From the IMG/VR virus record IMGVR_UViG_3300020404_002568, positions 1 to 31,488 of that record: a stretch of DNA of 31,488 nt; one strand, 5' to 3'. The notes under the pieces are model-generated. The model was given only the letters and a program-made list of their open reading frames with translations. It ran no database searches and was not told where the DNA came from. The translations under genes were made by a program, and so were the position numbers. This document shows, piece by piece, positions 24,143 through 27,708 of the stretch. The stretch is from a virus. Position 1 is the stretch's first letter. Each line of letters starts with the position of its first letter.

Positions 24143-25921
24143 TTAATCTGATACTCCTAAAACTGATGTTGTTGAATGAGTATGTGGATTTTGCTTATCA
24201 AAATGTATTGATGGTATGGTAGTTTTTGATGATGATGAACTTTCAACACCACCAAAATCTTGGAAACCACCCACACTATTATCTGAACCAGCCATGATAA
24301 ACTCAGTATCATTTTCTGAAAAATCACTTATTTTATTAGCAGCATCAAGATTATTATTTTTAGTTGGCGTTATGTTTTCTGAGTTACCTTTTATAGCTTC
24401 GACTTCATCTCCCTCTTTTTTGTCTCTGTTAAAAACTTTTATATCTTTCATTCCAAGTGCATTCATTATTTTCTTGGAAAGATTTTTCATCACTGACTCA
24501 CCAGCAAAACCACCAATCAAAGCACCTATGAATGCACCTGGTGCAGCACCAACACCACCAAATAAAGCACCTATTGCACCACCAGCGATAGCACCAACTT
24601 TTGCACCTGCCATAAAACCTGCTGTCGCTGCAAGTGCGGACATTAAACCACCATCTTCACTTAACAATTCACTAAAAAATGTTATAAATGGTCCTAATGC
24701 CTTTCCTAATAATTTACCAAAACCAACTTTTGGTAGTCCTTTTGTTAAATTCTTTGCCTTGCTGACAATTCCAGTCTTAGAGACTGCCCTTACTCCATCA
24801 TCAAGTAAATTTTTACCTCTATTCAATAAGCCTTTTGCTCTACCAAAAAGACCACCACTTCTTCCTAATGATACTGGTTTGTTTAATTGACCAGCTGCCA
24901 TAGTTGGATCAGAACCACTGAAAAATTTTTGTGTATTCAGTTTAGGAGGGACTGACTGAAATTTTTCCGTACCCTGAAAAAAGTTTCTTACTCTACCAAA
25001 AATACCAGTTTTTGACGCATTAGGATTAATTATTTTTTTAATATTTCTAAGTGGTCTATTTTGAAATTGTCTTGGATTTATTTTTCTTCCTAAAGTCTTT
25101 GAAAATGTTTTTTTGATTATTCTACCACCAGATCCTAATGCCTTAAAACCAAGATAATCTGCAAGTATACGGGTGAGAAAACCACCAATTCCACCTGCAG
25201 TAAGAACTCCAGCTGTCAATAATGCTGCTTTTTTAACAAGTCCAGCTAATAATATCTTTACACCTGTCAAAGCTGCCTTAAATATTCCCCCAAAGGCAAT
25301 TTTTGCTACATTACCACTAAAAACTGCTAATATACCAAGAACTTTTTTCATTCCTATCTTGATAGCAGTTAAAGAACCTAGTATGACTGTTAAACCAACT
25401 AAAAATTTAGTTTTTAATCTATTAATCTTATCAACATTACCCTCTGCCATCGCTTGGAGTAAGTCAATACCAGTTACTGTTAACCAACCACCAGCAAGTG
25501 TAAATAAAAAATTCGTTAATTGACTTAATATACCTTGAGTTTTAACACCTATTTTCTGAAGTGGTTGTGCTAAACTAGATTGTATTTTATTTTCAAGAGC
25601 ACTCTCTTTGCCTTCTCTTAATCCTTGTTCTGCTAATATTCTTTCTCTATTTTGCTTTGCTGCTTCTCTTTGTCTTTCAAGTTGATCACCTAAAGCTAAA
25701 TTTTCTTTTACACTTTTTAAATTAAAATCTAAAGTTGCAACTTGTCTTGATATGTTTTGTAATTGACCTGAAACTGATGTGAGTTTCAATGATTGTTCTT
25801 GTAACAAATCAGTTGTTACAGTATCTGGTTGTGAATTTTGCGATGCACCAAGAAAACTAGAAGAAATATTTCTCCTAACTGCCCTTATTCCTCCTGATAT
25901 TGGTGAACCGAACTCATCCAT
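24143..25921 (-). CDS. 29: Tape-measure candidate (gp29-like hub / tail-length determinator)
   Basis: This is a 592-aa protein, close to T4 gp29 (590 aa). Residues 35-125 form a coiled-coil-like region ('QLQNISRQVATLDFNLKSVK', 'LERQREAAKQNRERILAEQG'). Residues 130-260 contain several membrane-like segments ('NFLFTLAGGWLTVTGIDLL', 'FLVGLTVILGSLTAI', 'LLTAGVLTAGGIGGFL'). Residues 270-400 are basic and residues 415-480 form a Gly/Ala-rich block ('GAIAGGAIGALFGGVGAA'). This mix is typical of tail tape measures. It directly follows gp26-gp51, the classic place for the tape-measure gene after its chaperones. The ATG overlaps the gp51 stop by eight bases. The role is inferred from composition, length and position; sequence identity to T4 gp29 was not established. 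Confidence 0.65.
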   Translation of the reverse strand: MDEFGSPISGGIRAVRRNISSSFLGASQNSQPDTVTTDLLQEQSLKLTSVSGQLQNISRQVATLDFNLKSVKENLALGDQLERQREAAKQNRERILAEQGLREGKESALENKIQSSLAQPLQKIGVKTQGILSQLTNFLFTLAGGWLTVTGIDLLQAMAEGNVDKINRLKTKFLVGLTVILGSLTAIKIGMKKVLGILAVFSGNVAKIAFGGIFKAALTGVKILLAGLVKKAALLTAGVLTAGGIGGFLTRILADYLGFKALGSGGRIIKKTFSKTLGRKINPRQFQNRPLRNIKKIINPNASKTGIFGRVRNFFQGTEKFQSVPPKLNTQKFFSGSDPTMAAGQLNKPVSLGRSGGLFGRAKGLLNRGKNLLDDGVRAVSKTGIVSKAKNLTKGLPKVGFGKLLGKALGPFITFFSELLSEDGGLMSALAATAGFMAGAKVGAIAGGAIGALFGGVGAAPGAFIGALIGGFAGESVMKNLSKKIMNALGMKDIKVFNRDKKEGDEVEAIKGNSENITPTKNNNLDAANKISDFSENDTEFIMAGSDNSVGGFQDFGGVESSSSSKTTIPSIHFDKQNPHTHSTTSVLGVSD

Positions 25922-26093
25922 TACGTTCTTGTTGTGCTTTTAGATTTTCCTCTTCAATATATTGTTGGAGAAGTGAAACATATATTTCTCTCTCCCAAGG
26001 AATCATGTTTTCTAGCTCCGTCAAGCTATATTTATGATGCTGTATCAAGGCAAAATTTAATTTATAGTATGACACTAGATCCTCATGTGCCAT
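25914..26093 (-). CDS. 51: gp51-like baseplate hub assembly protein (tail-assembly chaperone)
   Basis: This 59-aa gene runs from an ATG at 26093 to a TGA at 25914-25916. The product begins MAHEDLVSYYKLNFALIQHH and contains 'LTELENMIPWEREIYVSLL', ending in a charged helix. The 'MIPWEREIYVSLL' motif is of the type found in small helical tail-assembly chaperones encoded just before tape measures. In T4, gene 51 follows gene 26 and catalyses hub assembly. Here it starts two bases after the gp26 stop, and its end overlaps the start of the tape-measure candidate. It may be made both alone, by reinitiation, and as a -1 frameshift fusion to gp26 (see the slippery site at 26102-26108). No Shine-Dalgarno is evident before the ATG. 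Confidence 0.8.
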   Translation of the reverse strand: MAHEDLVSYYKLNFALIQHHKYSLTELENMIPWEREIYVSLLQQYIEEENLKAQQERNG

Positions 26094-26095
26094 AC

Positions 26096-26812
26096 TTATC
26101 CGAAAAAACTCTGCAACCCCTCAATTGTAATTTCACTTTCAACTTTTGTATTTGGATTGATAACTTTAACTTTATGAGATAATTTTGGCATGGTATCAAA
26201 GAATTTTTCAATCTCTTTAAATTGTGAGGAATTTAATGATTCTAAAAATTCAACTAATTCTTTGCTTGTACAATCTTCCTGTGTCCAAGATTCTTCTTCT
26301 GAATAAATCTGATCTATACAAGATGCTATCAAATCAAAAGTGTCATTAACATTAATATCACCAGCAGAAAAATTTGATTTAATAAACTCATTCAATGAGG
26401 GGTATCTCATTTTGAGAGTATATGTATCATCTAATTTTATATCTGGTGAATGCCCCTCAGTTCTTTGAACTTTTATAGAATCAATATTAATTGATGTAGG
26501 GACTTGTGTTTTTTCATCATCAGGACATGTTACCATGACTTCAATCTGTTCTCCAACAGATTTACCACGTACATTTAAAAATAAGTATTCAATATCAAAA
26601 GTTGATAATTTATCAACCTTTATACCTTTCGTCAGAATACAAGTAGATAAAATACTTTTTACTGCAGTTGCAATTTGTTTTTGATCTTGAGACTCTAAAG
26701 CTATAATCAAAATTTTCTCTTCTTTCACAAGAAAAGGTCTATATTTTATCTTTCGATTAGACGAAGGAAGCACCAACTCATAAGTTGGTGTTGAAATTGT
26801 TGGTAAAGGCAT
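26096..26812 (-). CDS. 26: gp26-like baseplate hub assembly protein
   Basis: This is a 238-aa protein; T4 gp26 is 208 aa. It starts 'MPLPTISTPTYELVLPSSNR', followed by 'KYRPFLVKEEKILIIALES', the typical opening of the T4 baseplate-protein (gp26) family. 'FLNVRGKSVGEQIEVMVTC' lies in the middle, and a helical, acidic C-terminal half contains 'LVEFLESLNSSQFKEIEKFF'. The N-terminal strands of this family bind other hub or tape proteins during assembly. A perfect TATAAATA late promoter lies 25 bases upstream. The stop codon lies just after a TTTTTTC heptamer, and the -1 frame is continuous with gp51, which would give a 299-residue fusion. The start ATG at 26812 is unambiguous. Confidence 0.85.
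   Translation of the reverse strand: MPLPTISTPTYELVLPSSNRKIKYRPFLVKEEKILIIALESQDQKQIATAVKSILSTCILTKGIKVDKLSTFDIEYLFLNVRGKSVGEQIEVMVTCPDDEKTQVPTSINIDSIKVQRTEGHSPDIKLDDTYTLKMRYPSLNEFIKSNFSAGDINVNDTFDLIASCIDQIYSEEESWTQEDCTSKELVEFLESLNSSQFKEIEKFFDTMPKLSHKVKVINPNTKVESEITIEGLQSFFG
26102..26108 (-). promoter_or_regulatory. Candidate -1 ribosomal frameshift site (TTTTTTC)
   Basis: Minus-strand codons are AGT TTT TTC GGA TAA, so the heptamer is T-TTT-TTC, a canonical X-XXY-YYZ slippery site in the gp26 frame. After a -1 slip the ribosome reads CGG ATA AGT and then ATG, entering gp51 in frame. No experimental support; a stimulatory structure was not modelled. Confidence 0.55.
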
Positions 26813-26862: not shown

Positions 26863-27708
26863 CTACCTCTCATATTGTGTTATTACACTTGATGGACGAA
26901 CTGAACTATTCTGTGATGTATCGGTTCCGCCATATTTTCCATTTGCTTCTGAATTTTTTGTATCTAAACCTGACCTTGTTATTATACCATAAGCATTTTG
27001 ATTAATAAGATTTTGATTATCAGATACGCTTCCTCCATCTCTTACAGGATTTCCTAAATTAAATATTTCATTGAAAGCTCTCTTTAAATCTCTGGCGAGT
27101 GATGATGATTCACCACAAATATATCTATCATAACTAAATGAAGCTGACGCTTTTAATACCTGTGATCCTTGATATGATACTCTTGTAGAATTTAATGCTA
27201 AAGGAAATAGTCCTATAAAACGATACTCTAAAAATCGATTATAATCTCTTTCAAATTTTATAATTTTTGTTTCATTTGATTTATAAGTTTCTGGATAATT
27301 TAATTGAAAATGATAAGCATCACTTGCTAAATTAGTATTTGCACCAGTAATATACTCCATCCAATGTTCTATAAATTTCATTGATTTATATTCATTATCT
27401 ACATAAAACTCTAATTGAATCTGAGTAAAGTTACGAGTATGAGCAAATCTTTCTACAACACCTTGGAAATCTCCACGAGTATCAATGGATGCTAATGCAC
27501 TTCCTGGTAAAAGTGCACCACTACATAATAATCCTGCATCTTCAACTACAAAACGATCATTCACACCTTTTCTTCTTAAAAAAGAACGCAATCCACCACT
27601 TGATTGATTACTAGGTAGAGCAAACTTTACTAAGTATTGAGATGTCTGTGCTACATTCTGAAATCTAGGTAAAAAATCTGATATTGGTCTTGGTCTCGGT
27701 GCTGGCAC
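26863..27708 (-). CDS. 54: gp54-like baseplate tail-tube initiator
   Basis: This is a 281-aa protein; T4 gp54 is 320 aa. 'ISDFLPRFQNVAQTSQYLVKF' (cited in part) and 'DRFVVEDAGLLCSGALLPGS' at the N-terminus are characteristic of the tail-tube fold. It is followed by 'VERFAHTRNFTQIQLEFYVD', 'FIEHWMEYITG' and 'LFPLALNSTRVSYQGSQVLK', which match the tube-protein superfamily shared by gp19, gp48 and gp54. gp54 sits on gp48 at the top of the baseplate and nucleates tube polymerisation. The C-terminal ~60 residues are low-complexity. The start is GTG (27708), read MPAPRPRP; no better ATG precedes the conserved region. A CTAAATA promoter candidate lies at 27734-27740. Other tube-family members are possible, but a separate gp48 exists at 28534. 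Confidence 0.8.
   Translation of the reverse strand: MPAPRPRPISDFLPRFQNVAQTSQYLVKFALPSNQSSGGLRSFLRRKGVNDRFVVEDAGLLCSGALLPGSALASIDTRGDFQGVVERFAHTRNFTQIQLEFYVDNEYKSMKFIEHWMEYITGANTNLASDAYHFQLNYPETYKSNETKIIKFERDYNRFLEYRFIGLFPLALNSTRVSYQGSQVLKASASFSYDRYICGESSSLARDLKRAFNEIFNLGNPVRDGGSVSDNQNLINQNAYGIITRSGLDTKNSEANGKYGGTDTSQNSSVRPSSVITQYER

Follow-up and report, generated by a model that had tools for sequence, protein, structure and literature searches.

Organization of the gp26-gp51 locus

The window, i.e. the whole stretch of 31,488 nucleotides analysed here (IMG/VR virus record IMGVR_UViG_3300020404_002568), comes from a marine T4-type phage and carries on its minus strand, in this order, a tube-like gene, gp26, gp51 and a tape-measure candidate, the last of which is assigned by position and features. 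The first of these genes (26863-27708) encodes a tail-tube-family protein (Phage_TTP_2, E=2.9e-14; phrog_45 tail tube, E=9.3e-35) at the position of a gp54-like tube initiator, and the gene at this position is annotated as baseplate tail tube initiator in HTVC008M and Aeh1. gp26 (26096-26812, frame 0) encodes 238 amino acids, matches PF12322 (E=3.2e-75) and phrog_150 (E=1.8e-81), and is the putative short tail assembly chaperone (TAC-N). The gp51 reading frame (25914-26102) lies in the -1 frame relative to gp26, matches phrog_634, 'baseplate hub assembly catalyst' (E=6.6e-28), and would form the C-terminal part of a fusion (TAC-NC). Counted from its ATG, the gp51 ORF occupies 25914-26093 (59 aa), and this ATG (26091-26093) could start gp51 alone. 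The original prediction placed the pair directly before a tape-measure candidate; the next ORF (24143-25921, 592 aa), which has glycine-zipper/hydrophobic stretches, indeed shares 8 nt with the end of gp51, and this position is conserved family-wide. In HTVC008M and Cr30 the gene downstream of gp51 is annotated as tail tape measure.

In pelagiphage, Caulobacter and Rhizobium/Agrobacterium relatives, gp51 and the tape-measure gene are separated by an extra small ORF (L086 3403-3735, L087 2372-2620, L090 2369-2779 and L096 2317-2682); the window has no such ORF. The gene after gp51 in S-CREM2 (L197, 2413 onward; 154483-159180 in the record) is labelled 'endolysin' yet occupies the tape-measure position, and its product has around 1,565 aa, compared with 592 aa in the window. 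The tail of S-CREM2, at about 418 nm, is reported to be the longest among isolated cyanomyoviruses (PMC10665884).

The 3' end of gp26 reads CAG AGT TTT TTC GGA TAA, and the gp51 ATG follows 2 nt past the stop in the -1 frame; the minus strand from 26110 to 26091 is AG T TTT TTC GGA TAA GT ATG. The predicted gp26 end and its in-phase T-TTT-TTC are thereby confirmed. Relative to gp26, the slippery heptamer (26102-26108) is phased as a canonical X XXY YYZ site, and one sense codon (GGA) separates its last codon from the gp26 stop. The -1 frame, which had been predicted to run open through the gp51 ATG and to encode a 299-residue fusion, does so, with no stop from within gp26 to the TGA at 25914-25916. 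A -1 slip on T TTT TTC would yield FF-RIS-MAHED..., the predicted junction being ...LQSFFR-ISMAHEDLVSYYK. Residues 1-284 of the resulting 299-aa fusion match phrog_150 (E=9.6e-94).

Modelled with AlphaFold (mean pLDDT 88), gp26 gave a moderate match to 2ob9, the tail assembly chaperone of HK97 (Z 7.7, residues 1-86). Other top matches from the second-look aligner were 3fgx (Z 8.0) and YqbN 3klu (Z 7.2), with unrelated rows at 4.3 or below, and a Foldseek search of the model against the PDB returned no significant match (E ~1). These chaperone-fold matches are moderate and confined to residues 1-96 at most; gp26 has approximately 240 aa, compared with 96-119 residues in the matched chaperone structures, at about 10% identity. 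The predicted fold appears to resemble those of HK97 and other tail assembly chaperones, a likeness that we treat as supportive only.

Conservation of the slippery heptamer

In the window alone the heptamer is unremarkable, as five other in-phase TTTTTTN sequences occur in the approximately 8,900 codons of its large ORFs. The original prediction proposed a check on whether the heptamer and the -1 relation are conserved among relatives, which we have carried out. TTTTTTC was found at the identical place, ten bases before the stop and with the -1 frame open, in all 79 close IMG/VR relatives that have the junction (around 67-89% identity). Among the 80 sequences that these form with the window, codon 236 is TTT in 80 and codon 237 is TTC in 80; TTT makes up 74% of the Phe codons elsewhere in gp26. 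The residue preceding the Phe pair varies (S/N/A/D/H), with its third base always T. A more distant second set has T TTT TTC, TTA or TTT in all loci but one. Of 171 sequences (the window and IMG/VR loci, the most distant at about 36% identity), 170 carry T TTT TTN in phase (135 C, 26 A and 9 T), and in the sole exception, L100, the gp26 frame is broken. Wherever the heptamer is present and enough sequence is available, the -1 frame continues without a stop into gp51, and the frame relation is thus conserved. Conservation of this extent rules out a chance origin of the heptamer.

The site is also present in 21 of 26 named phage records, namely P-SSM2, S-CAM1, Syn1, MED4-213, HTVC008M (SAR11), Cr30 (Caulobacter), RHph_Y68, PhiW-14, Vibrio D484, Desulfovibrio 7757, Astolliot, IG49, Pseudoalteromonas XG4, AsFcp_4, Mendera, ORM_20, Variovorax V45v66, S-CREM2, Aeh1, PX29 and Cronobacter S13. 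Their hosts include Prochlorococcus, SAR11, Vibrio, Aeromonas, Rhizobium, Caulobacter and Desulfovibrio, and the gp51 core is still recognisable in distant phages. Searches of IMG/VR with the Desulfovibrio and Vibrio D484 sequences returned no relatives, so that these two clades rest on named records. Among the same 26 records, Cygsa01, Vibrio D494 and VAP7 have an overlapping TAATG instead of the heptamer, and T4 and a Gelderlandvirus have no heptamer and a gene-25-type ORF after gp26.

Stimulatory elements around the heptamer

Upstream of the heptamer lies a Shine-Dalgarno (SD)-like element, GAGGGG (26117-26122), whose core GAGG ends 10 nt upstream of the slip site. In 166 of 183 loci GAGGG or GAAGG occupies positions 14 to 10 ahead of the heptamer, and in 116 of the 183 GAGG/GGAGG lies exactly 10 nt upstream. 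The Glu codon at this element is GAG in 74 of the 80 close relatives, against a preference for GAA elsewhere. The SD spacing of the Escherichia coli dnaX frameshift site is approximately 10 nt.

Downstream, folding and covariation identify a stem-loop (26066-26096) with an 11-bp stem (26086-26096 with 26066-26076) and a 9-nt loop. It begins 5 nt past the heptamer, overlaps both the gp26 stop and the gp51 ATG, and has a minimum free energy (MFE) of -13.1 kcal/mol in the window. Over 71 sequences, 93.2% of the stem cells are paired, and none of 500 shuffles attained the observed covariation score of 0.156. At one stem pair U-A, A-U and G-C interchange, a synonymous Ala third base being coupled to a Val/Glu/Ala codon change; the tree carries eight double compensatory stem changes, seven of them at this pair. 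A second group has a stem of different composition at the same place, which also covaries. The junction MFE has a median of -10.8, compared with a mean of -4.5 for gp26 control windows (p=6e-16), and the junction fold falls in the lowest 5% of controls in 43 of 70 non-redundant loci and outside it in 27; some heptamer-bearing loci have no strong predicted stem. The stimulatory elements typical of bacterial -1 sites are conserved here, namely the SD-like element and, in most groups, the covarying stem-loop.

A hairpin proposed by RNAalifold in part of this region, GAGGG/TTTTTTC, pairs two invariant elements with no two-sided changes, and was not counted as support. In one lineage (L047, L062, L063 and L066) the left stem arm is replaced (GTGTAGCCCTCTCC), which abolishes both the gp51 ATG and the conserved stem and keeps the heptamer and the SD-like element; this replacement has the look of a recombination event there.

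Transcripts in the gp51 frame could also be produced if RNA polymerase, rather than the ribosome, slipped on the T run. Runs of 6-8 T do occur at the site, and transcriptional slippage has been documented on runs of about 9 (PMC5009743). However, the run is mostly just 6 T, ended by C, A or G. Both the SD-like element and the covarying stem-loop, furthermore, characterise ribosomal -1 sites, and we regard a transcriptional origin as highly improbable.

The start of gp51

In 53 of 183 loci, among them those of HTVC008M, Desulfovibrio 7757 and IG49, the -1 frame contains no ATG, GTG or TTG upstream of the conserved gp51 core. Reinitiation therefore cannot make gp51 there, and judging from these sequences the gp51 part can hardly be made otherwise than as an extension of gp26. 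Reinitiation had been put forward originally as the simpler alternative: ribosomes would stop at the UAA and restart 2 nt later at the AUG, giving a separate 59-aa gp51, and the heptamer would be incidental. The UAAGUAUG arrangement, the AUG retained in most close relatives of the window and the overlapping TAATG of a few heptamer-less relatives are all in agreement with such a restart. However, the start-less loci exclude it as the sole route. In addition, the AUG position is occupied by Leu in other clades, the purine-rich GAGG lies around 25 nt before the AUG, which is too distant for a normal SD sequence, and the invariant heptamer and the fused nature of T4 gp51 would be left unexplained. 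We consider it scarcely credible that reinitiation acts by itself.

A variant compatible with frameshifting is that both routes operate in the window's clade, the frameshift giving TAC-NC and reinitiation some free gp51. The AUG 2 nt past the stop is kept in nearly all close relatives, and some free gp51 may be made in this clade. However, this AUG has no SD sequence of its own, is covered by the stem-loop and is replaced by a Leu codon in other clades, and the retained Met may be merely a residue of the fusion. Double use of the junction is thus conceivable but rather unlikely.

gp51 is often omitted or started late in public genomes (S-CAM1, Aeh1, HTVC008M and others), and no joined (ribosomal slippage) CDS was found at gp26/gp51 among the annotated records fetched. 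The gene is unannotated, though encoded in the -1 frame behind the heptamer, in Aeh1 (L198 1767-1947), AsFcp_4 (L191), Cronobacter S13 (L200), ORM_20 (L193) and S-CAM1 (L083). Aeh1 has been described as being without gp51 (PMC3037559), which is explained by its frame lying, unannotated, behind T TTT TTC. In Syn1 (L084 2268), HTVC008M (L086 3253), Astolliot (L095 2313) and IG49 (L096 2184) the annotated gp51 start lies around 30-50 nt past the gp26 stop; these late starts are probably an artefact of a forced start codon.

Relationship to T4 gp26 and gp51

T4-type phages rank among the most abundant viruses of the ocean. In T4 itself gp26 is followed by gene 25, the heptamer is absent, and gp51 (249 aa) is encoded on the strand opposite to gp26. 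Residues 1-201 of T4 gp51 match PF12322, the gp26 family (E=7.7e-55), its C-terminus is the gp51 domain, and the protein aligns with the 299-aa fusion of the window across the junction (E=1e-6). By homology, T4 gp51 is a paralogue of gp26 to which the gp51 domain is joined in frame, and equals the product expected here. This paralogy lends indirect support to a short and a long product that would have their N-terminus in common. Thus T4 gp26 and gp51 would correspond to TAC-N and TAC-NC, the long form being a separate gene, and by its gene arrangement T4 does not frameshift at gp26/gp51. Cyanophage gp51 has been described as missing the first 200 or so residues (PMC3037559), which the shift would explain, as gp26 would supply these residues.

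It seems to us fairly likely that the gp26-gp51 frameshift, with its SD-like element and stem-loop, is older in the T4 superfamily, and that the T4/coliphage branch duplicated gp26 and fixed the fusion as gene 51. If a duplication did replace the recoding site in this way, it would account for T4 as the textbook exception to the conserved chaperone frameshift. By the present data, this exception is confined to the T4 branch sampled (T4 and a Gelderlandvirus) and does not hold for the superfamily.

Proposed mechanism

The conserved slip site, frame, stimulators and gene order, and the homology to T4 gp51, are best explained if gp26 is the short tail assembly chaperone (TAC-N) of a T4-type phage and -1 slippage produces a 299-aa gp26-gp51 fusion (TAC-NC), an explanation in which we have great confidence. 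SD-like pairing 10 nt upstream and the stem-loop 5 nt downstream would hold some of the ribosomes translating gp26 in a pause at T TTT TTC. These ribosomes would slip back by one base, bypass the gp26 stop and read on through gp51. By analogy with lambda G/GT, many gp26 molecules and a few fusion molecules would then coat the tape measure encoded next, recruit tail-tube subunits and leave. What we infer from the arrangement is the slippage itself, its efficiency and a chaperone function for both products.

The original proposal of a frameshifting tail chaperone pair is well borne out by the conserved heptamer and frame, the SD-like element, the covarying stem-loop, the start-less gp51 loci and the in-frame fusion found in T4 gp51. 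With very high probability, the site in the window is a working -1 programmed frameshift for the long tail assembly chaperone, and nearly all relatives examined outside the T4/coliphage branch very probably make a gp26-gp51 fusion by a -1 slip. The frameshift is ordinary in kind and well supported, and its compact, conserved junction is useful for settling both the T4 exception and the annotation of gp51.

Comparison with known systems

The tail assembly chaperone frameshift was shown to be conserved by Xu, Hendrix and Duda in 2004, and, according to a review, long-tailed phages 'except T4' share a conserved G-T frameshift (PMC5009743). Vladimirov, Gautam and Davidson (2022, Virology 566:9), as cited in two later papers (PMC10274946, PMC12846349), assigned T4 gp26 and gp51 as tail assembly chaperones, under a title that stresses a mechanism other than frameshifting. 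According to the PRFect paper, they noted some T4-like phages in which a short gene is accompanied by a long, fused one (PMC10274946), and the Adele paper gives them credit for poly-T slippery signals found within T4-like TAC-N genes (PMC12846349). From the latter credit, the frameshift itself is probably not new, and was probably already recognised in outline. The original idea that it could link the T4 and lambda systems is therefore supported as such, but the link had been drawn before (Vladimirov et al. 2022, via PMC10274946 and PMC12846349), and T4 itself has separate genes. In the literature searched, where Vladimirov et al. 2022 is represented by the papers citing it, we found no paper tying cyanophage gp26/gp51 to frameshifting, and no mention of the covarying stem, the SD-like element, the start-less gp51 clades or the Aeh1 case; the 2022 article may hold them.

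The two T4 chaperones are the same two proteins as those described here, T4 gp51 corresponding to the predicted frameshift product. T4 differs in that the long form is a separate paralogous gene on the opposite strand and gp26, without the heptamer, is followed by gene 25. A frameshift described in Vandenendeviridae and Andersonviridae, which are different phage families, shares the poly-T motif (GTTTTT) at the 3' end of the short chaperone gene and a -1 frame open into the next ORF, and the passages of PMC12846349 consulted describe no stimulators for it. The -1 cassette of E. coli dnaX likewise combines an upstream SD-like sequence, a slippery heptamer and a downstream stem-loop (PMC5009743), but in dnaX the heptamer is A AAA AAG, slippage reaches around 50% and the product is truncated, whereas T TTT TTN in gp26 is predicted to extend the protein.

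Several features are shared with lambda G/GT. Both have the order of tube-family gene, short chaperone, -1 extension and tape measure, a slip site a few codons before the stop and, as predicted here, a short and a long product, and the predicted fold of the short protein may be chaperone-like. Since lambda G and GT are absent from mature virions (PMC5009743), a missing junction peptide in virions would not refute the frameshift at gp26-gp51. Differences from lambda G/GT are the slip sequence, T TTT TTN, and its accompaniment by a stem-loop and, upstream, an SD-like element.
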